Origin: Eutreptiella sp. 'Long Island Sound 2002'
Lineage: Eukaryota; Euglenozoa; Euglenophyceae; Eutreptiales; Eutreptiaceae
Direction: 5' to 3'
NCBI GenBank assembly: GCA_964036045.1
Contig: OZ038379.1
Location: 76,775,992 to 76,839,991, forward strand
Length of the DNA: 64,000 bases
Every line of letters begins with the position of its first letter. Position 1 is the first letter of the stretch. Both the position numbers and the translations under genes were made by a program. Shown in pieces: positions 8,809-48,224 of this stretch. The notes under the pieces were generated by a model that had not been told where the DNA came from, ran no database searches, and was given only the letters and a program-made list of their open reading frames with translations.

Positions 8809-8814
8809 AAGGAA

Positions 8815-22290: not shown

Positions 22291-22445
22291 CGTCCAGAAA
22301 CTTACAGGTGCAGGTACCCGGCATGCAGAATCGCGGGTTTGTAACATGTGCAAATGCACTTGGGGTACACAAGTGATCTTAAACCTACGGAGGCAAGAAA
22401 GCATGGTATGAAAATGATGTAGGACGAGCACTACGATGACATGTG

Positions 22446-22867: not shown

Positions 22868-23961
22868 CTACCCCTGAGCCCCTAGCACAGGCCACGATGC
22901 ACGATGCAGGATGCACAAATTCACACGCATGCATGCATGCACAATCAACTGCATGTTTTGTGCAGCCCTCAACAGTGCGGTCAACATGCCCAGCATATCA
23001 CCGTTGACGCGCGTCCATGTTGAAGAGCAGGAGGACAAAAGTGAGGTAAGGAAGGGGGGTGGAGAATGGGGTACGGACTCTAGGGAAGCCATGCGAACAC
23101 AAGGAATATGGCGAACAGCGTCGTGTTGGTGCAGGTGGATGTGAAAATCCAGAAAAACCCATTGCGGCATTTGCCCCAGGACATTGGCGTCTATGTGGAC
23201 AGAGGCCTCCGGGCGTCCACAGGCACGTTGCCCGTTTGCCTGTTGCTTGCCACCGCCCCGGGCACTATGTTCGTTAACAGCCTGCTTTAGGGACCTGTTC
23301 ATGCAGTCAACCGAAAGGCCATATGTCGTCAAACAGGCGGTCTGCATCTCCCTCCAAAAAAAGGAGGTACTGGCACGCAGACCTGGGTGCACAATGCTCG
23401 CGGAAGGCAACTGCTATAGCCGGCACCGGGAATGCACACACTTGATAAGTGTGGTACAAGTCCCGTAGCAGCTGTGGCATATCAACAACCGCCTTTTAGA
23501 GCAACTCATCCGTCGCCATAGCCAACAACAAGGCTAGGTCTGGCCATGCAGCAAAAAGACGGGAGGTCTCCTCACCGTTCAGAGAGGCATCCTTCGCCAG
23601 ACGGCAGCTGGTGCGATGTTCATGCAACGTGGCTTGGATGGCCGCAGAAGTTACATGATCACCAGGGGCGAGCCGGTCATTGGCCAACCGTCCAATGTTG
23701 GCCATTTGCGGACGCCCTAGTGCCATGCAATAGTGCAAAATGCACATGGCCACCCGGCAGCGCGCAATGACCACCACCGCGTCCACAGAGCAGCCAGCCG
23801 CTTTAAGGGACGGTGTCACTAACAAGAAAGATGTCCGCTGCTCATGATCTGCCTTGGTCGTCCGGACCACATCTTTGCCCATCCAAACGCGGGCATTAGA
23901 ATCCCACATGGCCTCATTGTGTCGGGACCCAAATTGTGGGGCCGGTGAAATCCCCATGATG
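22868..23961 (-). pseudogene. Gene H, 3' part (downstream of the transposon insertion)
   Basis: A minus-strand frame (WDSNARVWMGKDVV, RVAMCILHYCMALGRPQM, SRLFAAWPDLALLLAMATDE) starts inside the TGATG target duplication at 23957-23961. Across the insertion it is continuous with the frame at 30514-30617. There is an in-frame TAA at 23496-23498, after which the same frame continues (VDMPQLLRDLYHTYQVCAFP). A plus-strand A7 run at 23356-23362 separates it from a second protein-like frame (LTTYGLSVDCMNRSLKQAVN); removing one base would join them. The product is unknown. It could itself belong to another mobile element. Certainly disrupted by the insertion, whatever the status of the other defects. 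Confidence 0.6.
23957..23961. other. Target-site duplication TGATG, left
   Basis: TGATG immediately precedes the left transposon end CTTAGGC and is repeated immediately after the right end at 30514-30518. Keeping one copy and dropping the element keeps the gene H frame open, which supports this as the true duplication. Confidence 0.9.
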
Positions 23962-23986
23962 CTTAGGCGTCACAAGTTGCCCACCC
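23962..23986 (+). repeat. Terminal inverted repeat, left (large copy)
   Basis: The first 25 bases, CTTAGGCGTCACAAGTTGCC then CACCC, equal the reverse complement of 30489-30513. The match then stops (CCC versus TCT). Confidence 0.95.
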
Positions 23987-24384
23987 CCCACCTGGCGCTA
24001 TGGCCCACGGAAGTCCATGTTGTAGTGAGGGGAAAAGTATGTGAAAAGGGGTGTTATTTTTTGGGTATCCAAACCCCCCTGGTGGCAACATGCAAAAACA
24101 AGGTGTGTATTTCAAATATATGCCATTATTTGCATTTCTGGAAACAGACACATTTTCAAAATAAAGACATTCAATCACCAAAAGATAGTGTTGTTTTACA
24201 TTTAGACCACTGCATTCCAGTGCGGGGGGGGGGGGGCTGCCTATTTTTTCTCTCCCCTCTGTTCCAGGGTGATCACAGAACCCCCCTATACATCACAGAT
24301 AAGGGAACCCCAAACATACCTTTCATCGAAGGACACAGAAAACTATCCCCAAAGCATGTACTTCTATTTCCTATTTTAACCAAC

Positions 24385-24712
24385 CTGGCCGAAATTTCGG
24401 CCACCTCTTCGAAAAATGTCCAAACACATGGTCCTATTTGGCAGACAGGCCTAAGCTGGACGAAATTTCGGCCACGTCCATCGAAACTCCGAATATGATC
24501 ACCGAAATGGGTACCTATGACAGTAGACATGAGCAAGGAACACAGGAGCAGTGACATTTGAACAGGGTGTGCAACATAATATACTCAATTACAAGCAAAT
24601 ACTTGCCACCTGACGAATCAAATCACACTTTTGGGTACAGTGCCTATGGGGAAACACAATAATAAGAGGCTGAAGAGGCTGAGGGCTGCATGCTGGCCGA
24701 AATTTCGGCCAG
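24385..24712. repeat. Palindromes near the 3' end of gene B
   Basis: Copies of CTGGCCGAAATTTCGGCCAG at 24385-24404 (last base C), 24456-24475 (one internal A, last base C) and 24693-24712 (perfect). The first two are 71 bp apart. Flanks share a TCGA / CCGAAT pattern with the intron copies of gene B. Confidence 0.9.
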
Positions 24713-25076
24713 ACTTCATATTGACACGCAATATAAGGAGTAGGACTGGCAATAGCGCTTGCGCAGACCAGATGCAGAGGGGCTTCTTAGCACCTGTGTT
24801 AGCAGGAGGCTTGGCAGGGGCTGCAGCACCAGGCTTGGCAGTGGCAGAAGTCTGTGACTGTGTGTTTCCACCCCGGGTTGGTGAAAAATGATTCACAACA
24901 GCATTCATACCTCTGCCAGTAGGGGCCACAGTGCCTGAGGAGGAAGCTGGGGTGGCCTGAGAGCAATGCGTGCCACTAGGTGAGGGAGCAGGGGCAGTTT
25001 TGGGTTTCTTCTTTGGAGTGTGTGTCTCTGGTTGCGACTCTGCTTCCCCATCTTGCTCCTCAGGATCCTCATCTAC
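24618..25076 (-). other. Open extension of gene B beyond the TAG
   Basis: In the same frame as the last exon of B, directly after the TAG. It reads as an acidic block, a nuclear-localisation-like PKKKPK, a Ser/Thr/Pro-rich segment and an Ala/Pro/Lys-rich segment (KPGAAAPAKPPANTGAKK). The final part, from about 24740, overlaps a palindrome (24693-24712) and is probably intron or 3' flank. Either the TAG is a nonsense change that truncates the protein, it is read through, or it codes an amino acid. Confidence 0.5.
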
Positions 25077-27341
25077 CTACCTAACCCCAGAACAATCCAC
25101 AGGAAAACCTGCCCCCAAGTCATGGGACACATCCTCCCATGACTTCGGGGGGCACGTGTCGGCGTTGGTGATAGCCGCTCTAATGGACTGAACAAACTCA
25201 TCAGGCACAACAGTCTCCTCACCCAAAAGGGCAAAGACAACATTACGGTCCTTGGAAAACCTGATAGACATCATGCTTGCAAAATACACAGACAGAGTCC
25301 CCAGCAGAAACCAATTGCCTGCCCGTTGTGGGACCGGAACCAGGCTCAAAAGAAACGAGAATATCTCAACAGGCATCACAGACGACATGGGTCCTTCAGT
25401 AAAAGCCACGTAACGGGGCATCCTGTTATCAAAGGCGGTGGCAGAACAAACGGAAACCAGATGGGAAGTGGAAGTATACAAAGGGGTCTTGGTTAACAAA
25501 TTGTAAATTGCAACATCACACTGATACATATCGTCAGCCACAGTGCCCTTCAAAACAGCAACAGTGGCTTTCACATCAGCAGACTCACCCGCAATGAACA
25601 CAGGCACAGCGGACAGAAGCAGTTGCGCAACGAGGTTATGCAAACCAGCTGTATAGAGGCGGGGCACCTCAATGACACAAGCAGCAAAGGGCAGTGAACT
25701 AATGATACTGGGAACAGGGACTCCACAACGCATTGCCATCAGTTCCACACGGCCTGACTCTGCAGGGAGTTTGCCTGTGCTTGTCTCAACGAGGGACTCC
25801 CTAGCACACTGGATACTAACCAGATCAGTATCAGATTTTTCACAAACAGGCTTAGCAACAGGCTTCTGCAACAATCCCCGCAAACCCTCATATTTGGGTT
25901 CCTTCCAAAGAGGGGCCTTAATTACTGCTGACCACGGTGGCCACGGGTTTTCTTCAGTCCAGGTCCAGCTGCCATAGGCTACCTTCAGGTGTGATGCGAT
26001 AGCGCACTGCCTTTTGGCCATCTCGATAGTACGAAGTGTAGCTGCAGACAGGTGGTATCACAGGGTGGGCTCCTATTGTGCATTAATTGAACGACACACA
26101 AGCTGGCCGAAATTTCGGCCAGGTCGGTCGATTTATTCGAATACAAACCCCTGTTTGACCAAAACATACCTCTGGTGTTGTTCACAAGCCCATTGGCAAC
26201 CGCCTCGGGATGAAGAATGTGCCAGGACCACATCTGGGCCTTTTTAACATCTTTTATAATTTTTTTGAGACCAAGTAGGGTACTTTTTGTCCCATCCATG
26301 TAACCTACGATGTCGCGAAATCGGTCAGGCGTGATGCCTTCCACTTCCTTGAACGTACCCGGTGCGGGATGTAATCCACGCTTCTCCATGGCTGCCATGG
26401 CGTCTACTGCAGCAAGACCCACAAATTTCAGCAAACGCCCAACGCCACCACACCGTTTGGCGACAGCAGTCTGCACAGGAGAACATGTGGAACACAGAAG
26501 CTGGCCGAAATTTCGGCCAGGTCGATCGACGGAACCGAATTAATAAACGAAACACACCACAGTGCCTTCCCTCGGCAGTAACACCACACTCCTCAAGCAT
26601 AACAGAAATGTGATGGTAAAGGGTATACTCATTGGCATCCTCATCCTCAAGCCTATCCGGGAGTAGGGACATTCGCTCCGATGTGGTGGATGTTGAGCCA
26701 GCAGTGGTCTGGATTTGATGTAAGCCTGCAAGCCAGCGCCTAGTCCGCGGGGGGCAGTCCTGTTTGACTTCATAACCACCAAATACCAGGGTCCAATCCG
26801 GAGTCTCCATATTTTTCATCTCCAATTCCGTCTTGTGTTTTTGGGCAGCAGTGTAAACATGCTGACCCCCCAACAGAACCCAGCGAGTGGCTGCGCAACA
26901 GGAATATTCGAAACAGCAGGGTGGAAAATTCAGGCACAAAAACGGTACTACCGAGAAGAATACCACAACACACATACGAGTGACTTTATAAAAAAGGAGA
27001 TCCTGGATGTAATCCACATGCGGGGCTGCCTTCAGATCGTCGTAGCGGCGTTGCAGGCGATCATCCGATATCCTACGGACCTGCCCAAATATTCGTTCGT
27101 GGTCAATAATAATCTGGTCCCAGCGAACCTTTATTTTCGTCGTTGACGTAACCCAGTCGGATAACTTGATGGAGGATGTTGAATTTTTCTTTGGTGCGGC
27201 CTTAGGCTTCTTTTGAAGTCCCTCTGTGCTCGCCTGGTCCTCTTGAGGCTGGGATTGCACTTGAGATTGCCCATTGTCTGCTGCAGGCTCACCATCTGGC
27301 GAAACAGCCACGTCCTGTGATTCCTCTCCAGGCTCAGTCAT
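25077..27341 (-). CDS. Gene B: four-exon transposon gene, function unknown
   Basis: Start ATG at 27341-27339. Proposed exons: 27341-26985, 26861-26556, 26470-26170 and 26041-25077, about 642 codons. Introns 2 and 3 end in GTGCAG and CTGCAG; intron 3 has a strong GTATGT donor and the phases agree (0, 0, 1). Intron 1 (123 bp, a multiple of 3) is optional. The N-terminus is Gln/Pro-rich with basic KKPKAAPKK, the centre has VFGGYEVKQD and LHPAPGTFKEVEGITPDRFR, and the last exon has PVEIFSFLLSLVPVP and AGFPVDCSG. The frame stops at TAG 25077-25079 but continues open for about 150 codons: acidic (VDEDPEEQDGEAE), then basic (TPKKKPKTAP). A paralogous fragment in the 2471-bp copy has Tyr at the TAG position. 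No family recognised. Confidence 0.65.
26103..26122. repeat. 20-bp palindrome in intron 3 of gene B
   Basis: Perfect CTGGCCGAAATTTCGGCCAG inside the intron 26042-26169. The following bases (GGTCGGTCGA, then ATTCGAAT) resemble those after the intron 2 copy. Confidence 0.95.
26501..26520. repeat. 20-bp palindrome in intron 2 of gene B
   Basis: Perfect CTGGCCGAAATTTCGGCCAG inside the intron 26471-26555, preceded by ACACAGAAG and followed by GTCGATCGA. The whole short intron is largely this repeat plus splice sites. Confidence 0.95.
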
Positions 27342-27460
27342 AAAATAAGATGCTACACGGCAACATTTCATGAAGGGGAGAGTTCCCGAATAGCAAATAA
27401 CAAGCACAGATCAACCAAAAAAGGACCAAAACGAACTGCGTGACAGGAAAATCGCATAAC

Positions 27461-27619
27461 CTGGCCGAACTTTCGGCCAGCACTGCTCTGCATGTTAAAC
27501 CACTTTGCAGAAATACCATTTTGAGGGGCTGTCCGAAATTTTGGCCAGAACCGTATGTCATTTGTGATCCGGGGGTAGCCATATGACCAAACAACAAGTC
27601 TGGCTGAAATTTCGGCCAG
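27461..27619. repeat. Three palindromes between genes A and B
   Basis: Copies at 27461-27480, 27529-27548 and 27600-27619, spaced 68 and 71 bp, each with one or two substitutions from CTGGCCGAAATTTCGGCCAG. They lie in the 370-bp gap between the stop of A and the start of B, so a role in expression of B is possible. Confidence 0.9.
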
Positions 27620-27711
27620 AAAGACATGAAACAGCCATTAGACACACCAAAATCACTGGCAATGCATGGCAGAACCCATACAACAGTGACAAACACAGCT
27701 GCAAACAGAAA

Positions 27712-29927
27712 TCAGTCCCAGTCCTGGGTATCCACACGGATGTGTTCTGCCTCATCTAGGGCTTCAAAGGAGGCAACGCTGTCTGCATCACAATCAATAT
27801 CCCGGTCACTATCACAACAGTCGATGGCGATGGAATCATCACGGGCGCGGGGGGGTACTGGGCGGGGGGGGGGGGGCTGGGGGGGGTACTGGGGGGGCTC
27901 TGGCTCGGGGCTTCGGGGGTGGCTTTGGGGGCAAGGCAATCCCACCAGGAGCAGCAGCAGGAGCAGCAGGCGGTGCACGGTTGGCAGCGCGGATAGAAGC
28001 ATGTGCATTACGCAATACCCCTTGCTGGGCAGCAGTGCGAGCAGGTGCATTTGTCTGTAAAAAAAACCCTCAACACCCTCAGGAACCCTGGTACTCGCAA
28101 CCAGATTTTGCATTGCATGCAACAGAACCACTTTTAACCGGTCTGTGGTGATTCGTGTCCAAGACATTGTAGCGGGGAAGATCACATCCTCAATTGCATC
28201 CAGTCTTCTCACCTCAACTTTATAGTCCGGAACAGGAACACATATGGGCAGGCTCTGTGTATGGGCTGTCAAGATGAACTGTTTAAGATTGGCAGAGAAC
28301 ATTGCCACGCATCTCTCAGTCAGCACACCACGCAAAACTTTCTCTCCCGGTTGGACAGGGGGAAGTGTCGGAAACAAATCAGACGACTGTTGGACACTCG
28401 TACAGGCAGTGTTGCGGCGACAGTGGGCTGGGAACCAACTCAGAAGTGCCTCACCCAGTTCCTCAGAGTGGATACACCCTAGAGAGGCCAAATGCCACTG
28501 ACTCCAAAACAAAAGAGCAACAGCAGTCGCTTTCACATACTCCGTGGCTAACTGCTCCTGTGCTTTAGGATGTTCAGCATGAGCAGTAGGGACATCTCAA
28601 GTGCCTGCTTAGCAACAATCCCGGAACCTGCCCACCGGCCCTCCCAGTTGCACTCACGAACCAAAGTCCCAATGCTGAAAGCAGCTGGACAGTATGTGTA
28701 CAGCAAAGCCTTAAGGGCTAATAACATACGCAAACCCTTGCGCTGAATGGGTGGCAAGTCCCGCTGGCTACTGAGCAGGGCAGTTACGCGCTCATCTAGT
28801 CTGCCTCTATTGGACGATGTGGCTAGCATGAGTCCAAGCAACGTCGTCTCCATATGGATGACCTTGACCTTGCGAGGGAGGATAGACGCAACCCGAAGGC
28901 TATTCCCCTGCTCCAAAAACTTAATGAACGGCAGAAACGCCCTGTAGATCAATTCAACGCAGTACTTATAGCTATGCCATACTCCATACACCAAAGGAAA
29001 ACCCAACAGTAGTTGTGGTACATTCCACGGGACATAAGCGGCACCATAACACAACTTAAGTAGGGCAAAGTGTATTTTCGTGTCCACAAGCAGCGGAACA
29101 CAGTGTCTGGTGCGGTGTTCCACACATGACAAATCAACCACGAGTTGCAAAAGCTGTTTCTGTGTGCCGGAGCGGACGTCAGACAGGAAAAAGGGTCTCC
29201 AGTTGAGGGAACGAACATTTTTTCTGGCAATATCTAAAGGAGCACGAACCCAAACTCTCTGAATACCTTGGTTGGCAACATCAATACGATCAAACAATGC
29301 TCTATGTGAGCGATAGATGTCATCTGCAACCTTTGGTACCCTGGCCTCAATTTCGGCCAGCTCCGGCGGACCCCGGTATGCAGGTAGGGCAGTAGTGTGC
29401 AAAACAGCAACAGCTGTACAGTTTAGGGTTAAGTCGGGTGAATGGGGATCAGCTCCCGACCTGTAACGCCTCACGTTATCAAACCATATACAAACTTGCC
29501 TACGGTGCCTGGTGTTCCACAAGTTGTGTGCTGCTAGTCCAGCACGATGGTGAATGGACTCCTGTTTGGTGATACACTGACAAGAGACTCCTATCTTACG
29601 GCGTTGGCGGCAGGACATAATACTCCAGTTGTAACCAGACCCTCAGTTAGAGTATGGGAGGGCCATACGACGCAACAGGCAGTATAGGGCATGGAACGGT
29701 GACAAAAATGTCATGTACCATCGTGGGGGCTGCTTCTCAGTGGCGGTAGCCTTCAACTGTGTCATGGAGTGCCGGCTCCTGCGATTCTTCCGCAACATGA
29801 GGGAGAATTGCAAAAGCTTTTGCATAGTCCCACCACGTAATGCATTTCGCCACAGCCCTTTGGCTGTAGTAGCACAAGCACCAGCAACTGCAGCATGTAC
29901 AACATTGACAGAAATACCAGAAGACAT
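27712..29927 (-). CDS. Gene A: possible transposase, disrupted frame
   Basis: Candidate start at 29927 (MSSGISVNVVHAAVAGACAT). An in-frame TGA at 29643-29645 is followed by the main open frame from 29618. That contains VCIWFDNVRRYRSGADPHSP and LTLNCTAVAVLHTT near its start, then GVWHSYKYCVELIYRAFLPF. An early W-F-D-N and a later W-H-x-Y-K-Y-C resemble the layout of RNase H-like transposase domains in large eukaryotic elements, but this is a weak match from memory. Continuation needs one extra C at 28589-28591 to reach PTAHAEHPKAQEQLATEYVK. An intron or indel at the A8 run 28059-28066 and a G13 run at 27864-27876 affect an Ala/Pro-rich linker. The end is acidic (EALDEAEHIRVDTQDWD), then TGA. 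Confidence 0.55.
29341..29360. repeat. Palindrome copy inside the gene A coding frame
   Basis: CTGGCCTCAATTTCGGCCAG differs from the element palindrome at two positions and lies in the open frame of gene A, where it encodes part of ELAEIEARVP. The only copy that appears to be translated. Confidence 0.75.
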
Positions 29928-29998
29928 TAATGCTGAGACAAGAAAACAGTTATGTAGGAGTGTAAGGTGTAATACTCATGAACAATGAAAATTGCAAG

Positions 29999-30308
29999 CT
30001 GGCCGAAATTTCGGAATTTCGGCCAGGTGTGTTCAAAGGGGGAATAATTGCTTAAATGTTCCAAAATAGGGAAAGCTGGCCCAAAATTTCGGCCAGACCG
30101 ACCAAAAACAAGAATAGAAGTGCTTGAATAGTAAACAGACCAAAAAGCTGGCCGAAAGTTCGGCCAGCCCTAAGAAAAATGAAAATAACTATGCCTATTC
30201 ACTAGGAAGCCAAAAAGCTGGCCGAAATTTCGGCCAGAAGGGTCAAAAGCTGCATATACACATAGTTGTTTGCAATGTTACCCAAAAGCTGGCCTCATTT
30301 TCGGCCAG
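29999..30308. repeat. Regularly spaced palindrome array, large copy
   Basis: Five palindromes start at 29999, 30076, 30148, 30218 and 30289 (steps 77, 72, 70 and 71). The first is an extended 28-bp version with the GAAATTTCGG core partly doubled. Between them lie about 50-bp segments that are not alike, except for a short CCAAAAAG lead-in. The array is upstream of gene A, so it could be a promoter or a transposase-binding region. Confidence 0.9.
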
Positions 30309-30488
30309 CTTCAGAAAAACGTCAAATACAACACAGTACAAGAAGTGGATACACAAGGCTAACACATCAACACGTATTTCAACGGGTGTCACACAGCTCT
30401 GCCAACAACTTTGGTCACATATGTCAAATAGCATACTCAAAGTAGAAATGTAGAATATTGTCACATCGCGCGTATACGGGGTCCTAGA

Positions 30489-30513
30489 GGGTGGGCAACT
30501 TGTGACGCCTAAG
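30489..30513 (-). repeat. Terminal inverted repeat, right (large copy)
   Basis: Reverse complement of 23962-23986 with no mismatch in 25 bases, ending GACGCCTAAG at 30513. Confidence 0.95.
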
Positions 30514-30518
30514 TGATG
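30514..30518. other. Target-site duplication TGATG, right
   Basis: Second copy of TGATG immediately outside the right end of the 6552-bp element. Confidence 0.9.
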
Positions 30519-30649
30519 CGACGCACCCAAGGGGAGTCTCCACCGAACGAAACATCGGCCGGGTGATCACAGGCGTCGTAGACAACCTGTTTGGTGTCCA
30601 CAACGAGGTTTGTTGGCTCAAAGAAGACAAATTGTCAGAACCAAATCGT

Positions 30650-30735
30650 TCCAATCAGTGTTTAAACAAATGGCCAGAACACAACGGGAACGGCGCTGAG
30701 ACAAGTTACCGGAACGCTGCTGGAACCATCGTTGG
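30650..30735. repeat. GGAAC cluster in a probable gene H intron
   Basis: CCAGAACACAACGGGAACGG, GTTACCGGAACGCTGCTGG and neighbours: the same motif class as the clusters at 16250-16390 and 17180-17280, again between two minus-strand coding stretches. Confidence 0.65.
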
Positions 30736-31479
30736 TGCACATAACACATCTTGATGTTGGCTTTCCACAAGGTTGCCAAGGTGGCCATTTGATTGTCCCC
30801 ACATATGGCGAGTCCCATGACCAGTACGCATGCTGGGATGCGTCCCCAGAGGCCCATGTTGACGATGGAGACCCTCAACTGGGACCGCTCCCCACTAACA
30901 CATGGATAGCCATCTTCCCTGACAATAAATGTAAAGGGGAAAGACCAATCAAACATGAGGCACAATGGGGGCAGGCTCGCAATGTAGCGAAGCCATGATG
31001 CTCATGGCCAGCTGACATTTGTGGCCTTTGGGTCGGATGTGCTCACTGTGGGGTTCCAACTCAAGCGGGGCCAACAGCTCCCGCTAGCACCGCTCGAAGG
31101 CCCTCTCGGGATAGCTAGGGCAAGCAAACGGCAACCTGGTAGCCGCCGTGTACTTCAACCCCCGGGGGATATACACCTCGAAAAGGGTGCGCCATGCTGC
31201 TTTGGGCGCACGTAGGTTTAAGATGAGTTCGCAACACTCATCGGGGGGGGGGGGGACCTCGGAGGCGTAATTGTTGATTGCCTCCTGCCACACATCCCGA
31301 ACAAAACTAGGTCCGGCCAAGCGCACATCCACAGTAAATTGGCGCCGAGTGTGTGGGGAGGAGACGGCCCACTCCGCCAAAAGCTCCTCTACAAGATCCC
31401 CGTCTTGAAGGATCACCGCACCCGCCAAATGGACAAGGGGGGTGGTTACTTTTAAAACCTGGGTCTTTTTCGCAGGCAT

Positions 31480-31989: not shown

Positions 31990-33775
31990 GTTCGAGGATC
32001 TACACCCATCAAGCATTCATCGCATTCACTCTAGAGTAGTGTACAGCCCATGCGATGAATCCTTGAAGGGTCTACACCCGTCAACGATTCATCCCATCCA
32101 CTCTAGGCTAGGGTACAGCCCATGTGATGAGTCGTTGAAAGGTTTACACCCATCAAGGATTCATCGCACCCACTCTAGACTGGTGTAGAGCCCATGCGAT
32201 GAGTCCTTGAGGGGCCTACACCCCCCGAGGTTTCATGGCATCCACTCTAGACTAGTGTGCAGTCCATGCGATGAATGCTTCAAGGGTCTACACCCATCAA
32301 GGATTCATCGCATCCCCTGTAGACTAGTGCAGAACCTAGCCAATGGATCCTTGGACGCTCTACGCCCATCAAGGATTCATCGCATCCACTCTAGACTAGG
32401 GTACAGCCCATGCGATGAATCCTTGGAGGGTCTACACCCTCCAAGGATTCATGGCATCCACTGTAGACTGGTGTACAGCCTATGCGCTGAATCCTTGGAG
32501 GGTCTACACCCTCCAAGGATTGATGGCATGCACTATAGATTGATGTAGAACCCAGGCGATGGGTCCTTGAAGGGGCTACATCCATCACAAATTCATCGAA
32601 GCCCATGTGGACTAGTGTACAGCCCATGGGATGAATCCTCGGAGGGTCTCAACCCTCCGAGGATCCATCGCATCCAATTCAGGGTGGTGTACAGCCCATG
32701 CAATGCAGGATGAAGGATCTACACCCATCAAGGATTCATCCCATTCACTTTGAACTAGGGTACAACCCCCGCGGTGAATCCTTGAAAGATCTACACACTA
32801 CAAGGATTCATGGCATCTACCCCGGTCTAGTGGACAGCCCATGCGATGAATTCTTGAAGGGTCTACACCCTCCAAGGACTCATCGCAGCCACTCTAGACT
32901 GGTGTACAGCCCATGCGATGAATCCTTGGAGGGTCTACACCCTCCAAGGATTCATTGAAGCTACTCTAGACTAGAATAGAACCCAGGCGATGGATCCTTG
33001 GATACACCCTGCAAGGATTCATCACATCCACTCTAGACTAGTGCAGAACCCATGCCATGTGATGGATCCTTGGAGGGGCTCCACTCGTCGGGCATTCAGC
33101 GCATTCACTCTACATGGCATCGCATCCACTCTAGATTAGTGTAGAATCAAGGCAACGGATCTTTGAAGCGTCTACACACATCAAGGATTCATCGCATCCA
33201 ATGAAGGTTAGGGTACGGTCCATGCGGTAAATCCTTGAAAAGTCTATACCCTCCGAGGATTCTTCGCATCCACTCTAGACTTTTGTACAAACCATGCGAT
33301 GAATCCGCATCCACTCTACACTAGTGTACAGGCCATGCGGTGAATACTTCAAGGCTCTACACACACCAAAGATTCATCGCATCTACTCTACACTAGTGTA
33401 GAACATATGCGATGAATCATTGGAGGGTCTACACCCTCCAAGGATTCATCGCATTCACCCTAGACTAGTGTACAATCCATGCGATGAATCCTTGGGGGGT
33501 CTAAACCCGTCAAGGATTCATCGCATTCACTCTAGACCGGTGCACAGCCCATGCGATCAATCCTTGAAGGGTCTACGCCCTCCAAGGGTTCATTGCATTC
33601 ACTATACATCAGTGCAGAACCCATGCGATGAGTCCTCGGAGGGTCTACACCCATCAAAGATTCATTGCATCCATTCCAAATTAGTGTACAGCCCATGCCG
33701 TGAATCCTTCAAGGGTCTACAAAGTCCAAGTATTCATCGCATCCACTCTAGATTACCCTTGGTACAGCCTAGAAG
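31990..33775. repeat. 73-bp hairpin satellite, left block
   Basis: About 24 diverged copies. The consensus has two halves, GCGATGAATCCTTGGAGGGT and ACCCTCCAAGGATTCATCGC, which are reverse complements separated by CTAC. Units are joined by CCACTCTAGACTAGTGTACA then GCCC. Each unit is therefore a near-perfect 44-48 bp palindrome plus a 24-25 bp linker. His/Arg/Ile-rich open frames (LHPPRIHRIHSRLVYSPCDE) are repeat artefacts. Confidence 0.95.
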
Positions 33776-37262: not shown

Positions 37263-40200
37263 GCGGCTCTACACCCATCAAGGATTCATCGCATCCATTC
37301 TAGACTAGTGTACAACCCAAGAGGTGAATTCCTCAAGGGTCTACACACTCAAAGGAGTCATCGCCCCCATTCTACAGCAATGTACAGCCCATGCAATGAG
37401 ACCTTGAAGGGTCTACACCCATCAAAGATTCGTCGCATCCACTCTAGATTAGTGTAGAAACCAGGCGATGGACCCTTGGACGGTCTACATTCATCAAGGA
37501 TTCATCACATCCACTCTAGACTAGCGCACCACCAATGCGATGAATCCTTGCAGGGTCGAAACGCTCCAATGATTCATCGCATCAGCTTCAGGCTGGTGTA
37601 CAGCCCATGCGATGAATCCTTGAAGGGTCTACACCCTCTACGGATTCATCGCATCCACTCTAGGCAAGTGTACAGCCCATGTGATGAATGCTTGAACGGT
37701 CTACACCCTCCAAGGCTACATCGCATCCACTCTGGACCAGTGTACAACCAATGCGAAGAATCCTTGAAGGGTCTACACCCTCCGAGGATTCATCGCATCC
37801 ACTCTTAGACTGGTGTACAGCACACGCGATGAATCTTTGAAGGGTTTACACCCTCAAAGGATGCGTCGCATCCCTTCTAGACTAGTGTAGAACACATGCG
37901 ATGAATCCTTGAAGGATCTATACCCTCCAAACATTCATCGCATTCAATCTCGACTCGTGTAGACCCCACACGATGAATCCTTGGAGGGTCTACAGCCTCC
38001 AAGGATTGATCGCATCAACTTTAGACTAGTGTAGAACGCATGCGATGAATCCTTGAAGGGTCTACACCCTCCAAGGATTCATCGCATCTACCCTAGACTA
38101 GTGCACAGCCCATGGGATCAACCCTGGAAGGGTGGACACGCTCCAAGGATTCATCGCATCCACTCTAGACTAGGGTAAAACCCAGGCGATGGATCCTTGG
38201 AGGGTCTACATCCATCAAAGATTCGTGACATTCCGTGTAGACTAGTATACAGGCCATGCAACAAATCCTTGGTGAGTCTATACCCTCCAATAATTCATCG
38301 CATCCACTTTAGACTAGTAAAGAACCCATGCGATGACTCCTTGAAGGGTCTACAACCATCAAGGATTCATCGCATCCACTCTAGACTAGTGCACATCCCA
38401 TGCGATGAATCTTTGGGGGGTCTACACCCACCAAGGATTCATTGCATCCACTCTAGACTAGTGTACAACCCATGCAATGACTCCCTGAAGAGTCTACACC
38501 CTCCAAGGATTCATCGCATCCGTTCTAGACTAGTGCGAAAGGCACGCGATGACTCGTTTAGGGGTCGACACCCTCCAAAGATTCATCCCATCCACTCTAG
38601 ACTAGTGCAGAACCCACACGATGCATCCTTGGAGGGTCTAAACCCTCCAAGGATTCATCGCATCCAGTCTAGACTAGGGTACAGCCTATGCCACACCCTC
38701 CAAGGATTCGTTGCATTGACTTTAGACTAGTGGAGAACCCATGCGATGAATCCTTGATGGGTCTACACCCTCCAACGATTCATTGCATCCACTCTGGACC
38801 AGTATGGAGCCCATGCGATTAATTCTTGAAGGGTCTGCACCCTCGTAGGGTTTATCGCATCCATTCTAGACGATTGTAGAACCAATGCGATGAATGCTTG
38901 AACGGTCTACACCCCCCAAAGATTCATCGCATCCACTCTAGACTAGTGTAGAACCCATGCAATAAATCCTTGAAGGGTCTACACCCTCCAAGGATTCATC
39001 CCATCCACTTTAGACCAGCATAGACCCCAGGCAATGAATCCTTGAAGGCCCTACACCTCCAAGGATTCATCGCATCCAACCTAGACTAGTGTGCGGTCCA
39101 TGCGATGAATCTTTGAAGGGTTTGCTACCTCCAAAGATTCATCGCATCCACTCTAGACTGGTGTAGAACCCATGCGATGAATCCTTGGAGAAAATATACC
39201 CTCCAACGATTCGGCGCATCTAGTCTAGACTAGGGTACAACCTATGCGGTGAATCCTTGATGGGTCTACTCCCTGCAAGGATTCATCGCATTTATCCTAC
39301 ACTAGTGCACAGTCCATGCGATGAATCCTTGAAGGGTCTACACCCTCCAAAGATTCATCGCATGCACTCGAGACGGGTGTACAGCTCATGCGATAAATGC
39401 TTGGCGAGTCTACACCCTCCAAGGATTCATCGCATCCACTTCTACCTTGTGTATAGCCCATGCAATGAAACGTTGAAGGGTCTACACCCTCGAAGGATTC
39501 ATGGCATTCTCTCTGGACCAGTGTACAGCCCATGCGACCAATTCTTGAAGGGTGTACACCCTCAAAGGATTCTTCACATCCACTGTAGACAAGTGAAGAA
39601 CAAATGGGAGGCATCCTCGGAGGGTCTACACTCATTAAGGATTTATCGCAGTCACTCTACAGCAGGGTACAGCCCATGCGATGAATCCGTGAAGTGTTTA
39701 CATCCTCCAAGGATTCATCACATCCTTTGTAGACTAGGGTAGAACCCATGCGATGAATCCTTGGAGGGTCCATACCCTCCAAAAATTCATCGCATCCACT
39801 TTAGACTAGTGTGGAACCCAAGCCATGAATCCTCGAAGGGTCTAGACCCCCAAGGATTCATCGCATCCACTTTAGACTAGTGTACAGCTGATGCTGTGGA
39901 CCCTCCAAGGATTCATCGCATTCACTCTACATCAGTGTACAACCCAGGCATTGACTCCTTGAAGGGTCTACACCCTCCAAGGATTCATCATATCCACTCT
40001 AGACTAGTGTAGAACCGAAGCGATGGATTCTTGGAGGGTGTACAACAGTCAAGAATTCATCGCATCCACCCTAAACTAGTGTAGAACCCAAGCGATGGAT
40101 CCTTGAAGGGTTCATACCCTCCAAGGATTCATTGCATCCACTTTAGATTAGTGAACAACACATGCCATGAATCCTTGAGGGGTCAACTGGCTTCCAAGGC

Positions 40201-41880
40201 CTCATAGCATCCACTCTAGACTAGTGTAGAACCAAGACGATGGATCCTGGGGGAATCTACACCCACCAAGGATTCATCGCATGAATCTAGACTAGTGTAC
40301 AACCCAGGTGATGCACCCTCCAAGGAATCATCGCATCAACTTTAGACTAGTGTAGAACCCATGCGATGAATCCTTGAAGGGTCCGCACCGATCATGGATT
40401 CATTGCGTCCGGAGTATACTAGTGTAGAGCCCAGCCGATGGATCCTTGAAGGGTCTACAGCCTCCTAAGATTAATCACATCCCCTATAGACTAGTGTACA
40501 ACCCATGCGAGGAATCCTTGCGGGGTCTATATCCGTTAATGATTCATTAGATTCACTCTACATGAGTGTACAGCTCATTCAATGAGTTGTACGCCCATCA
40601 GGGCTTCATCGCATCCACTCTGAACTGGTGTAGAACGCATGCGATGGATCTTTGAAGGGTCTACACCCTCCAAGGATTCATAGCATCCACTCTAGACTAG
40701 TGCAGAGCCCATGCAATGAAACCTTGAAGGCTCTACACCCTCCATAGGTTCGTCGCATCCACTCTAGACCGGTGTACAACGCACGCCATGAATCTTTCGA
40801 GGGTACACACCCATCAAAAAAATTTTGCATCCACTCTGGACTAGTGGAAAACCCAGGCGCTGGATCCTTGTAGGGTGTACACCCTCCAAAGATTCATCGC
40901 ATCCACTCTAGACTAGTGCACACCCCATGTGATGAATCCTTGAAGGGTCTACACCCGCCAAGGATTCATCGCATCCACTCTACACTAGTGTAGAACCCAT
41001 GCGATGAATCCTTGAAGGGTCGACAACTTCCAAGGATTCATCGCATCCACTCTAGACTAGTGCAGAGCCGATGCGATGAATCGTTGTAGGGTCTACACCC
41101 GTCAAAGATTCATCGCATTTACTCTACATCAGTGTACCACCCATGCGATGGATCCTTGGAGGGTCTACGCCCATCAAACATTCATCGCATCCACTGTAGA
41201 CTAGTGTAGAACCCAAGCGATGGATCCGTTGAGGGTCTACATCCATGAAGGATGCATTGCAGTCCATGTATAGTAGTGTACACCCCATGCGATGAATCCT
41301 TGGAGGGTCTACACACATCACGGATTCCTCACATCGAGTCTAGACTAGTGTTGCACCCATGTGATAAATCCTTGACGTGTCTACACCCTCCAAAGATTCA
41401 TCGCATCCACTCTAGACGCGTGTAGAACCCATGCGATGAATCCTCGAAGGGTCTACACGCTCCAAGGAATCATCGCATCCACTCTAGACTAGTGTACAGC
41501 CCATGCGATGAATCGTTGTAGGGTCAATACCTGTCAAAGATGCACCGCATGCACTCCACATCAAATTACAGCCCATGCGATGGATCCTTGGAGGGTCTAC
41601 ACCCATCAAAGATTCATCGCATCCACTCTAGAATAGTGTACAACCCAGGCGATGGATCCTTGAAAGGTCTACACCCTCCAAGAATGCATCACATTCAATG
41701 TTGAGCAATGTAGAGCCCATGCGATGAATCCTTTGAGGGTCTACACCCGTCAAGGACTCATCGCATCCACTCTTGAACAGTGTACAACCCATGCGATCAA
41801 TCCTTGAAGGGTCTACACCCTCCAAGGATTCATCGCATCCACTCTAGACTAGTGTACAACGCATGCGCTGAAGTAAGGTA
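37263..41880. repeat. 73-bp hairpin satellite, right block
   Basis: About 63 copies of the same unit as 31990-33775. A near-perfect example is 38040-38087: arms 38040-38061 and 38066-38087 around CTAC with one mismatch. Spacing between GGATTCATCGC blocks is 72-73 bp. Some units have lost one arm. No coding sequence recognised inside. Confidence 0.95.
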
Positions 41881-43090: not shown

Positions 43091-43849
43091 TATTTGAACG
43101 AGGACCTGCGGGGACCTATGGCGACACACCACAACACTGCGCAGCATAGCATCGCACACCTACAAGTTGTGATATGATCATTTTCATTGCTGTCATTGTT
43201 ATTGCATGAGAAGCAACAACTATAAGACAAAAAAAGAACACCCTCCCGCACCCCCGAGTGAAACCGCGCCACTCAGGCAATTCCCTCAAGCCCCCCCCCC
43301 CGCCTTGAAAAACGTGTAAAGAAAGGAAAGGCAACCCCCAACCAAGGCTTCAAGCAAGGGCACCCCCACAGTGCCTATGCCTATGTCAAAATGTGTGTGT
43401 GTGTGTGTGTGTGTGTGCTTTCTGTGTGTTTGTGTGTGTGTGTGGGAGCACATCTGCCTGTACATGCGCCAAATCCGTTGGTTTGCTGTGCAATGGTGTC
43501 TGATGGCCCTACAACGCTAGGGTTGAGGCCAGAGAGCGAAAATGTACACCTGGAACGGTGTAGTGAGTGGGTGCAGTTTCCATACTTACTACAAACAAAC
43601 GAACAAAACCAAGGGGGGGGGGTTTTCGGAATCATTTTCCATACTTCCTCATGCATGAGAGCACTGATGAGTGGGGGGGTGGAAGGGCCGGGGAAGGGCT
43701 AGACGTGGGGGGGCAGCATTCTTGCGGGGGGGATCTTCCGTTTGGGGTGGGGGGGGTACTAAATTACAAGGGGAGGTGGGTGAGGTGGATTTATGGTTTG
43801 GCTAATGGTGGTCCATGAACGTCTGATGTGTTATGCCTGATGGCCAACC
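43091..43849. other. Spacer with (TG)n
   Basis: Holds a (TG)n tract at 43390-43445 and several G or C runs (43289-43300, 43613-43622). No credible gene. Confidence 0.6.
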
Positions 43850-44671
43850 AGTCCGCGATACACAATCCTGACATAAGGTGTCCTGGACATTTCATTCCAT
43901 GTAGCGAGCAAATGCACCGTGTGTCCTCAGTACTTTACCGCATGTCCGGAGCAAATACACCGCGTGTCTTGGGCATTTTGGTGCATGACCAGACCAGATG
44001 CACTGTGTGTCCTCAGCATTTCATGACATGGCCAAAGCAAATGAACCATGTGTCTTCAGGAATTCACTGCATATCCGGTGCAAATACACCGTGTGTCCTG
44101 AGCAATTCCTTGCATGTCCACAGCAAATACACCGTGTGTCGTGAGCAATTCACTGTACGTCCATAGCATATACACCGTGTATCAGAAGTATTTCCTTGCA
44201 TGACGAGAGGAAGAACACCGTATCTTTTGAGCAATTCACTGCTTGTCCAGAGCACACACACGTTGTGTTCTGAGCAATTTAGTGCATGTCCCGAGCAAAT
44301 ACACCGTGTGTCTTCAGCAATTCACTAAATGTGGAGAGCAAATACGCCACTTATCCTTAGCATTTAACGTCGTCTCCAGAGCAAATACACCATGTGTCCT
44401 CAGCAATTCATTGGATGTGCAGAGCAAATACACCGCGTGTCGTGACCAACTCACTGCGTGAGTAGAGTAAATACAGCGTGCGTCATGAGCATTTCTCTGC
44501 ATGTTCAGAGCAAATACCCCGTGTGTCATAAGTACATCCGTGCATGACCAGAGGAAATACAACGTGTCTTCTTAGCAATTCACTGCATGCCGAGAGCAAA
44601 TGCACTGTGTGTCCTGTGCGTCATGAGCAATTCCGTGCACCTCAAGAGCAAAGGGGTGTGTCTCCTAAATA
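43850..44671. repeat. 43-bp satellite, diverged monomers, left of transposon
   Basis: Units with GAGCAATTCACTGCATGTCC, AGAGCAAATACACC and GTGTGTC, with GTGTGTC at 44091, 44134 and 44177 (43-bp step). Continuous with 47143 onward once the 2471-bp element is removed. Confidence 0.95.
44667..44671. other. Target-site duplication AAATA, left
   Basis: AAATA directly before CTTAGGCC, and again directly after GGCCTAAG at 47143-47147. Confidence 0.85.
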
Positions 44672-45349
44672 CTTAGGCCACGCTAACTGCCCACCCCCCT
44701 ACGCACAGGCTGGGCTCCGCGGGGCCATACTGGCCCCTTGTGAGTACACCCAAAAACAGGGTATGAATTCAGCACCTAGGGGACCCCTTGCACCTGGTAG
44801 GAAAAAATGAGTATCTCTACTTATTTAGAATGCTATTCTCATGTAACCACACCACAGTTGTCAAAACACAATAAGGATGCATGCATACTGGAAAAGCAGA
44901 GGAAGAAAGAAGGTTTCTAGAATACAACAAACCTTTCCGGTGTTACACACAAATGTATTATCCACCGAGGCGATGTAGTGCAAGAACTAGGGTAGCACAC
45001 ACTTGGCAAAGGTTGATGCACCATGTGTGTGCCCAATAATTGTCAATTGATAGTCACTCCAATTCATGCATCATAATCCAGGTCTCTATTTGCCATTGTT
45101 GAGAACTCCGGCCGGAAATTCTTCCAACTTTACACGGATGTAAAAACCAACCGTGTATTCCGGGAAATTTCTGAACCTGGGCGAAATTTCTTCCTGCTTT
45201 AGTAAAACACAAAAAAACAGTGCGCAAATCGCCAATAGTATCTGCACAGACATCGCAGAACGACATTGAGACGTGTAAGAGGGAAACCATAGAATACAGC
45301 AGTCAAAGCACACACCATTGTCAATCTAGCGCCGCTTCCTCGGGCGAGG

Positions 45350-46103
45350 TGCCTTGGTTTGGCACACTTACCAGTAAACAGCCCACCATTTGCTTGTGGT
45401 GCCTGGTCACCAGGCATCTCACTGTTAGCACCACCAGTGGCACCACGTCCATTCTGTGTCTGCTGGGACGGTGGGAATGGGCTGCAAACGTGCCCAACGC
45501 CTTGTTGGGTGGAGGCTTTGATCCAGGCTTGGAGCTTTGCTGTGAGGGGCTTGCTCCAGCCTGTGATTTCTTAACCTTGGCGGGTGTGCCGTCCCCCTGC
45601 TTGCCAGTTGACTTCGGGCGGGGGGGGGGTTATGGGACTCACCGTCCTCTTCCTCTGGTTGGGTAGCCTCCTCGTCTTGATCTACATACCTCCTCCCCGT
45701 ACAATCTACTGGAAACCCATCTGCAAGGTATTCACACACTCAGTCCCACTGGATTGGTGCCTCAGTGTCGCAGTTCGACACAGCGGCCCTCAGATCAGTA
45801 ACACATGACTCGGGAATAGACTTCACCTCATACAAGTATGCAACTGCAATGTTCATAGGGAACATGCTTTTGAATGGATAGGGGTGCAGAAGAATTTGGT
45901 TGCTCTGTGCAAACCATTACCCATGTACTATGCGGCTGAAACAAATCTAATGCATACAGCAAATAACAGAACACTTCAACGGGAATGGCACTCGTCAGGG
46001 TGCCTTGGCTTTGGCTTTGGTTTGGCGGCTGGTTTAAGCTGTGGTTCTGGTGCAGGGGCGTCAGCAGCAGCAGTTCCCTCACTTCCACTAACGTGCCCTT
46101 CAT
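45350..46103 (-). pseudogene. Decayed paralogue of the gene B C-terminal part
   Basis: The minus-strand AIPVEVFCYLLYALD aligns with MPVEIFSFLLSLVPV of gene B. After a frameshift, AVAYLYEVKSIPESCVTDLR aligns with FALLGEETVVPDEFVQSIR. Then DGFPVDCTGRRYVDQDEEA aligns with AGFPVDCSGVR, the TAG, and VDEDPEE. A TGA at 45740-45742 interrupts the frame where B has an acidic residue. Downstream a Gly/Asn/Gln-rich stretch (NGRGATGGANSEMPGDQAPQ) ends at a GTAAGT donor-like site near 45373. The N-terminal two thirds of gene B are missing. At least one frameshift and one nonsense codon make it non-functional as read. Confidence 0.75.
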
Positions 46104-46340
46104 TGTTCACCAGGTTTTCGGGCTGTGTACCAACATTTTAAGAGACTTCCATAGAAGACATCGCTTGAAAAGTAAGAAAACATGAGATGCAGAGTGTAAA
46201 CATGGGGATATCTAGGTGCTCAGACAGCGATATTAACCAACTTAGTTCAAATTTGGAGAAACCAGGCTCAAAAACAGACAGTGCCGTACAACAGGGATGA
46301 CACAGTGCTGAAGGCTATGAAATTGACGTTGATCGGAAAG

Positions 46341-46936
46341 CTGGGCGAAATTTCGCCCAGGTCTAGCAGTTTCAAATGATACCAGGCTCAAAATCATGAA
46401 AGTCTGGCGCCTGGTGGGCTTGATGGGCCCAAGTGACAGTGAGGCAAAGGGCAACATATCAGGCACAGGACAAGCAAAGAAACAACAGGAGGGGGGTTAG
46501 GGGAAGTTTCACCCAGGATCACTGATTGGTGTTTTTGACCTGTACATTTTGCAGAAGAGGCGGAGCTGGGGGAAATTTCGCCCAGGGTCATCAAGACATC
46601 AAAATATGTACACCTCTTTTGCTATCCGGGGGGGCTGGGGGAAATTTCTCCCAGGTTTGGGACAATTGGCAAATAGAGACAGTGAATTTGAGTTTCAAAG
46701 TGTGTATGCATGGGACAGTGAGGCAAATGGCAACATATCGGGCACAATACAAGCAAATAAACAACAGGGGGGGGGGGGCTGGGAGAAATTTCACCAAGGA
46801 TCACTCATTGTTGATTTTGACCTATACATTTTGCAGAAAAGGCGGAGCTGGGGAAAATTTCGCCTAGGCTCATCAAGACATCAAAATATGTATACCTTTT
46901 TTGCTATCCGGGGGGGCTGGGGGAAATTTCGCCCAG
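46341..46936. repeat. Regularly spaced palindrome array, small copy
   Basis: Palindromes of the form CTGGGCGAAATTTCGCCCAG start at 46341, 46497, 46566, 46635, 46779, 46848 and 46917. Within sub-blocks the step is exactly 69 bp. The block 46435-46713 is duplicated as about 46714-46990 (280-bp tandem duplication), which explains the 46497/46566/46635 and 46779/46848/46917 triplets. Gly/Phe-rich open frames here are artefacts. Confidence 0.9.
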
Positions 46937-47142
46937 GTTTGGGAAAATTGGCAAATAGAAAATTTGAATTTGAGTTTCAAAGTGTGTATGCATAGGACAC
47001 ACAATAAATGTATAATTATTCTTCACCACCTATCACACTACATGCGACACATGGAAAACATACACACAAAAAAAAGACACATAAAAGGCGACAAACTGCC
47101 CATGTTTGGGTCGTAAGGGGCGGGTAGTTAGCGTGGCCTAAG

Positions 47143-48224
47143 AAATAGTTCATTGCACGACGAAAGCAAACACACCTTGTGTCGTGAGCAATTCCCTGCA
47201 TGACGAGGGCCAATGCATCGGGTGTCCTAGACAATTCATTTGATGTATAGAAGAAATGTACCGTGTGTCCTGAGCTATTAATTGCATGCCCACAGCAAAT
47301 AGATGCTGTGTGCCGAGCGTTTCGCTACATGATCAGAGCAAATAACCCGTGTGTCCTGAGCATTTCATTACACGATGAGAGAAAATAAACCTCGTGTCCT
47401 CAGCAATTTACTACATGACCACAGCCAATACATCGGATGTCCTCATCATTTTACAGCATGTTGAGAGCAAATATTTCCAATGTTCATAGCGATTCAGTCC
47501 ATTTCCAGAGCAAATACAACCATTGTCCCGAGCAATTCAATGCATGTCCATAGCCAATACACCGTGTGTCCTAAGCGTTTCAATGCATCTCCACAACCAA
47601 CACAACGTGTGTATTGAGCAATTCACCGCATGTCCAAAGCAAATACACCGTGGGTCCTCTGTCTCGTGAGCAATTCACCACATTTCTTGAGCAAATACAC
47701 GGCGTGTCTTGAGCAATTCACTGCAGGACCAAAGCAAACGTATTGTGTGTCCTGGGCAATTCAGCGCATGTGCAGAGCAAACAAATCCCGTGTAATGAGC
47801 ATTTCACTGCATGTTCAAAGCAAATACACGGTGCATAATGAGGAGTGCAGTACATGTCCAAAGCAAATATGCCGCATGTCCGAAGTGATTCACGACATGT
47901 CCAGAGCCAATACACCGTGTGTCAGAAGTGTCTCCTTGCATGAGCAGAGGAAAAACACCGCGTGTGCTGAGCAATTCACTGCCCGCCCACAGCAAACACA
48001 CCTTGTGTCTTAAGCATTTGCCTGCATGTCAGGAACAAATACACCGTGTGTCTTGAGCAATTCACTGTAGGTGGAGAGAAAATACACCGTGTGTCCTTAG
48101 CAGTTCACGTCATCTCTACGGCAAATACACCATGTGTCCCAAGCAATTCATTGGATGTGCAAAGCAAATACACCGTGTGTCTTGACCACCTCACTGCTAG
48201 ACTAGAGCGAATACACCATGCGTC
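47143..48224. repeat. 43-bp satellite, diverged monomers, right of transposon
   Basis: Continuation of the 43-bp satellite with no higher-order period. Starts at the AAATA target duplication (47143-47147). Confidence 0.95.

Follow-up and report, generated by a model that had tools for sequence, protein, structure and literature searches.

The 64,000-nucleotide stretch analysed here (hereafter the window) belongs to contig OZ038379.1 of the euglenophyte Eutreptiella sp. 'Long Island Sound 2002' (assembly GCA_964036045.1, forward-strand positions 76,775,992 to 76,839,991). It contains an element, called element 1, that is a member of the first of at least three related families and very probably represents a cut-and-paste DNA transposon of unassigned superfamily, with a putative nuclease (A) and a putative palindrome-binding protein (B, or A itself). 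Element 1 occupies positions 23962-30513 (6552 bp) and has the termini CTTAGG..CCTAAG. The 25-bp terminal inverted repeats, at 23962..23986 (plus strand) and 30489..30513 (minus strand), match each other perfectly. They are flanked by two copies of the sequence TGATG, at 23957..23961 and 30514..30518, which form a 5-bp target-site duplication (TSD). Both the inverted ends and the duplication are located where an earlier sequence-only reading of this DNA had placed them. A scan of the window for exact inverted pairs of at least 16 bp, 100-15000 bp apart, found 455 pairs. The ends of element 1 tie with one satellite pair as the longest of these, and they are the only pair among the best 40 by length that is flanked by a 5-bp repeat.

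Two genes are positioned on the minus strand between the ends. Gene A (27712..29927) has a counterpart of 736 amino acids in copy L061, read from the first ATG of its frame, and homologues in families 2 and 3. Gene B (24750..27341; the low coordinate is approximate, from comparison with copy L062) has four exons separated by GT-AG introns at 26891-26977, 26471-26557, and 26042-26169. Comparison with L062 shows that both genes are decayed in the window: A contains an in-frame stop and frame changes, and B contains a frame change and a stop. The exact ends, the TSD, and the two genes support the previous interpretation of the locus as a DNA transposon. The description of the transposon as complete holds for its ends but not for its genes, which are broken.

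Removal of element 1 together with one copy of the TSD produces a minus-strand frame of 193 amino acids that spans the junction, with 39 codons on one side. The flanking frame described before is thus continuous over the insertion point, and it constitutes moderate evidence of an empty site; the reconstructed frame is given little weight because the surrounding region contains several further stops and frame changes. The interrupted region (22871-23957 and 30519-31479) resembles a single protein-coding gene whose parts lie in different frames; either the region itself is decayed or the assembly contains insertions and deletions. Open frames neighbouring element 1 gave only weak Pfam matches, below the cut-off, and the window gave no match in Rfam and tRNA scans.

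The ends of element 1 are abundant in the 2.28-Gb genome assembly. The first 20 bases of the left terminal repeat have 681 forward and 680 reverse exact matches, and a reversed-pattern control has none in either direction. Among the matches listed, 36 two-ended loci from contig C1 (L060-L095) were picked by end spacing. The 5-bp flanks are identical in 33 of them, and none of these duplications exceeds 5 bp. Copies with the ends of element 1 and 5-bp duplications are thus numerous; their lack was one of the two outcomes named beforehand as refuting the earlier interpretation, the other being a match to a known superfamily. In L073 and L090 the flanks agree at four of five bases, and those of L091 are unmatched. 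Four loci around unpaired ends, which have no second exact end (L096-L099), were excluded from the count. The target sites were compared in a sample of 34 (the window copy, the second element described below, and 32 loci; L095 was dropped since its right flank is cut short). With both strands counted, 84% of the outer TSD bases are A or T, and a C two bases before the TSD or a G two bases after it is present in 62%. A nuclease that works as a symmetric pair of subunits would be expected to leave such a symmetry.

The window copy is 90.4-95.1% identical to 12 full-length copies, and the other eleven full-length copies are 92.7-98.2% identical to L061. Gene A is a single frame of 752 codons in three of the 12 (L061, L062, and L068) and in the shorter copy L080. 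In a protein search with the A piece from the window, 114 of 6980 first-look candidates were scored; they are 92-94% identical to it, excluding the window itself, and many have open frames of about 750 amino acids. The high identity of the copies and the open A frames indicate that family 1 was active rather recently, with the window copy as an older, damaged member.

Two of the two-ended loci enclose additional sequences. A piggyBac-type transposase frame and a frame that by eye resembles a reverse transcriptase, both transposon-like, lie between the family-1 ends of L091 (C1:85216089-85223273). L095 (C1:84609215-84619208) is a 9.8-kb locus with CGGGT duplications, in which 129 bp of end sequence are followed by about 6.9 kb without a listed match to L062, with open frames of 375, 398, and 435 amino acids. 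The first 612 codons of gene A come after this stretch, which may be a nested insertion or captured sequence.

A second element in the window (44672..47142) is diverged and deleted, and belongs to family 2. Its ends, CTTAGGCCACGCTAACTGCCCACCCC, are complementary at 24 of 26 bases, and it is flanked by the TSD AAATA at 44667..44671 and 47143..47147. A remnant of gene B (45623..45922, minus strand) shares 40% identity with the gene B of element 1 and contains a stop; tblastn finds it with an expectation value (E) of 4e-14 in the masked window and 1e-15 in the element alone. Nucleotide comparison of the two elements shows short matches only, mostly palindromes and ends. The second element sits within an array of a 43-bp satellite, and its joined flanks form a 43-mer in agreement with the satellite unit at 27 of 43 positions, which supports, without proving, an empty site. 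The right flank alone has the same satellite register (22 of 30 positions); the left 30 bases, taken alone, agree best with a different register (16 of 30). Minisatellites with units of 49, 72, and 43 bp form long arrays at positions 1-8813, 31995-33752, 37268-41872, 43825-44616, and 47126 onwards of the window. The 43-bp array contains a 982-bp higher-order repeat, the copies of which are 94-97% identical to the first.

The ends CTTAGG-N10-TGCCCACCC and the genes A and B in fixed order are common to at least three families of this genome. The end type of family 2, CCACGCTAAC, has 76 forward and 63 reverse matches in the genome, and that of family 3, CCACGCAAAC, has 55 and 69; a degenerate end pattern with one more C has 390 and 383, with none for the control. 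The gene-bearing loci examined were one of family 2 (L101) and two of family 3 (L100 and L102). In all three, both A and B are present, with unchanged order and orientation. Their identity to family 1 is 39-43% for A and 37-56% for B in L101, 33% and 27-32% in L102, and 29-36% and 24-33% in L100. In tblastn searches against the single 7-kb loci, the E values for A were 1e-79 (L101), 5e-97 (L102), and 2e-59 (L100), and those for B 2e-88, 2e-32, and 5e-34, respectively. Gene A of L102 is open for 704 codons, and its tail apparently shifts frame relative to L100; the frames in L101 and L100 are broken. Both family-3 copies that were followed to both ends have a 5-bp TSD. L100 with L103 forms a two-ended element of 6952 bp (TSD ACGGA), and L102 with L104 one of 6976 bp (TSD ACTTT); in each, the ends differ at one of 25 positions.

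Several rearranged copies were seen in families 2 and 3. Relative to L102, L100 contains a piece of gene A of about 150 bp that is displaced by 3.9 kb and inverted (positions 1432 and 5317-5468); it was first seen as a minus-strand match to A. Sixteen of the 76 forward ends of family 2 are located in one tandem array (G000:C4:88598952-88626195, part of it in L107), at intervals of about 1.7 kb, one of which is twice as long. The unit in L107 consists of a family-2 end and about 500 bp of element-like sequence followed by other DNA; the array is a transposon end incorporated into a tandem array. A 1.7-kb family-2 end pair (L106, C2:67495390-67497400) is flanked by inverted copies, with no direct duplication, and is like a large palindrome.

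Of the positions compared across the three families, 132 of 634 are identical in A and 122 of 565 in B. The invariant residues of A, counted from the ATG of L061, include D150, which follows a hydrophobic stretch (VCIWFD), D160, D232, and D282 (PLLVDMKI in family 1). A WHxYK motif, HxEK (E360), E463, and EExGEAxLS (E489, E490, and E493) are also invariant. Judged by eye, the order of a hydrophobic stretch with D150, a hydrophobic stretch with D282, and then a glutamate suits a DDE core. It is probable from this residue order that A is a DDE-type transposase or nuclease, and the candidates for its core are D150, D282, and either E360 or E489/E490. Gene B of L062, with four exons and GT-AG introns, encodes 761 amino acids with a charged head and a basic tail. 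The ratio of nonsynonymous to synonymous substitution rates in exon 1 of B is 0.27-0.34 (121 codons, compared with three 3.9-kb copies that are not independent of one another), which argues in favour of purifying selection on B.

Searches at E up to 10 found no Pfam family for A of L061, B of L062, or A of L102, and none for the two decayed window proteins read through; separate pieces gave only weak matches below the cut-off. The HMMER filters drop many weak matches, which limits these negatives. As a positive control, the piggyBac-type frame in L091 matches DDE_Tnp_1_7 at 1e-20. Presumably, the Pfam library includes models for hAT and for Kyakuja-Dileera-Zisupton (KDZ) elements. The motif spacing and parts of A resemble DUF6589 proteins (PF20231), to which hmmscan at E up to 10 gave no match and on which a full-text literature search found nothing. 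The earlier statement that the superfamily is unassigned is consistent with these comparisons, which covered Pfam for both proteins and Protein Data Bank (PDB) sequences for A. No relatives of A, B, or the family-3 A were found in viral contigs, none of A in genome contigs, and none by tblastn against phages. The end pattern occurs in 17 stretches of viral contigs, where the best inverted partner at any place in the locus matched only 12-16 of 25 bases; these were taken as chance, including one of the 17 (L049) that combines a 16 of 25 match with equal 5-bp flanks. Among the papers listed in literature searches on 5-bp TSDs and new superfamilies, KDZ, palindromes and elements with two open reading frames, Euglena, and CACTA elements, none was recognised as describing this element.

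It is possible, although we rather doubt it, that the families are strongly diverged members of a described superfamily (hAT with a 5-bp TSD, Transib, Ginger2, or the DUF6589 group) beyond the reach of the Pfam profiles. A TSD of 5 bp is known for hAT5, and TSDs of 2-5 bp for the CMCT clade that includes Transib (PMC12730594); that of Ginger2 is 4-5 bp (PMC10045372) and so fits as well. In our own comparison, the conserved (G/S)xWHxYK of A after D282 might correspond to the C/DxxH motif found in hAT, MuDR, P, Kolobok, and Dada (PMC10045372). However, the profile searches, with their control, gave no family, hAT included, for A or B. Most CMCT elements have CA..TG termini, unlike the CTTAGG..CCTAAG found here, and there is no sequence match. 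CMCT transposases have C(2)C and H(3-4)H motifs between the second D and the E (PMC12730594), whereas the three families have just one invariant cysteine in A, which leaves no C(2)C. KDZ elements are likewise eukaryotic DNA transposons, with a TSD of 7 bp in Kyakuja and 8 bp in Zisupton (PMC12730594), against 5 bp and no Pfam match here. IS3EU has 6-bp TSDs and TA..TA termini (PMC10045372), and neither is present. The TSD of piggyBac is 4 bp (PMC10045372), and A and B do not match DDE_Tnp_1_7.

The noncoding parts of the element contain palindromic sites. In element 1, five sites of the CTGGCCGAAATTTCGGCCAG type, some of them degenerate, are positioned about 70-75 bp apart upstream of gene A (29998..30312), and three lie between A and B, upstream of B (27461..27619). 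Perfect palindromes are present in introns 2 (26501..26520) and 3 (26103..26122) of gene B and downstream of it (24693..24712). Two more sites, 71 bp apart, are near the gene-B end (24385..24475). Copy L062 has 14 sites with up to three mismatches from CTGGCCGAAATTTCGGCCAG, 11 of which are perfect; mononucleotide shuffles of L062 contain a mean of 0 sites in 50 trials. The L062 sites upstream of A are 206, 277, 347, 418, and 487 bp from the gene-A end, 69-71 bp apart. The remaining sites comprise three upstream of B, spaced by 71 and 68 bp, a single site in intron 2 of B and another in intron 3, three on the far side of B, and a weaker one in the coding sequence of A. The palindromes of the second element (46341..46936), of the CTGGGCGAAATTTCGCCCAG type, are 69-75 bp or multiples thereof apart.

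The arms of the palindromes are separated by a preferred spacer. When CTGG-N-CCAG was scanned with spacers of 0 to 30, family 1 had a peak at 12 (14 in L062, 18 in L074, and 9 in element 1), as did the second element (4). L101 has two at this spacer, barely over a background of one. The peak of family 3 is at spacer 2 (9 in L100 and 8 in L102, each with two at spacer 12). Neither CTGG-N2-CCAG nor CTGG-N12-CCAG occurs in the rest of the window. The palindromes appear to be constrained. Between families 1 and 2 they differ by a matched change in both arms (CTGGCC..GGCCAG against CTGGGC..GCCCAG). The inter-site spacing of 68-71 bp in L062 is kept even though the four compared stretches between sites are only 30-52% alike. 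When noncoding stretches of 12 copies of 3.9-kb type, L081 and L083 among them, were aligned with L062, site bases are identical at 6018 of 6516 positions (0.92) and other bases at 22328 of 29671 (0.75). These copies are related to one another, and any anchoring of the alignments on the sites would bias the result in favour of the latter.

The best reading of the palindromes is that they would be dimer-binding sites of a protein of the element itself, most likely B, or A. This assignment is made by analogy with En/Spm (CACTA) elements, which encode a transposase and a DNA-binding protein and have family-specific subterminal repeats recognised by TNPA, acting in cis (PMC2613891). Like En/Spm with its TNPA and TNPD, the families described here have two proteins, subterminal repeats, defective derivatives, and motifs that diverge between families (PMC2613891). 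They differ in having CTTAGG ends and a 5-bp TSD instead of CACTA ends and a 3-bp TSD. Their sites are compact dyads with a preferred spacer that are also positioned between the genes and in introns, and the proteins have no Pfam transposase match. In the proposed mechanism, A would be a DDE-type nuclease that cuts the ends of the element, with a stagger of 5 bp that would produce the 5-bp TSD. A dimeric element-encoded protein, most likely B, would bind the palindromes and help to bring the ends together, and it may also regulate the promoters of both A and B. The 3.9-kb relatives, which lack A, would have been moved in trans.

We consider it unlikely that a host factor, acting in transcription or silencing, binds the palindromes in place of a protein of the element. 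Their positions upstream of both genes and in introns are such as host regulatory sites could have. However, the palindrome sequence and the preferred spacer vary between families within one host, and the two dyad forms are absent from the rest of the window; both observations could also be accommodated by a host factor. An exchange of roles, with B as the catalytic protein and A as its DNA-binding partner, is rather improbable. B has 17 acidic residues and an HxxH motif (H316 and H319) that are invariant across the three families, whereas the DDE-like order was seen in A and the charged head and basic tail in B; this difference is not decisive. It is very improbable that the palindromes act as RNA hairpins in splicing or transcript stability, or are small independent insertions, since sites near both ends fall outside both gene models and the family-3 sites would form stems of only 5 bp with a 2-base loop, even though two palindromes are in B introns and could pair as RNA.

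Several observations weigh against the proposed transposon with its nuclease and palindrome-binding protein. PDB sequence searches with A gave no credible match, and neither Pfam, nor PDB sequences, nor the single AlphaFold model, which was made of the window A piece alone and left unused at a predicted local distance difference test score of 35, shows an RNase H fold in A. Among the copies, L091 has two ends without a TSD, being rearranged or nested, and L101 has no second end within about 8.3 kb. One site-like sequence of element 1 is within the coding part of A (29341). The palindromes of the deleted relatives also count against the proposed reading. Ten 3.9-kb relatives without gene A are 95-98% identical to one another and have 28-31 sites each; the matching segments of three (L072, L074, and L078) are about 73-81% identical to L062. 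Their extra sites accompany end segments that are repeated and inverted. They have 7.1-7.9 sites per kb of element, with little coding sequence, and in L062 13 of the 14 sites fall within 2036 noncoding bp. Thus the number of sites doubled, with little rise in their density per noncoding kb. Six simple deletion copies (L080, L082, L084, L085, L089, and L094) have 3-12 sites, with no increase; L084, which has a TSD, has three. The multiplication of palindromes is limited to the 3.9-kb lineage and does not extend to deleted relatives generally.

Tentatively, and with somewhat less than even confidence, we propose that the half-site CTGG was kept between families while the preferred spacer and the protein changed together, the spacer switching between 2 and 12 bp, and that one non-autonomous lineage spread after duplication of its dyad arrays. 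The 10-bp difference in spacer is approximately one turn of DNA, so that the half-sites would stay on one face of the helix.

As of 2022, Repbase distinguished 23 superfamilies of eukaryotic DNA transposons (PMC10045372), of which 21 have a DDD/E transposase. A two-gene element that has hundreds of ends in the genome and recent copies, and for which no profile match was found, is a candidate for addition to these superfamilies. Its families constitute a natural series of proteins with their palindromes, in which the half-site is constant and the spacer varies, and the joint change of a transposon protein and its binding sites would therefore be open to a direct binding test.

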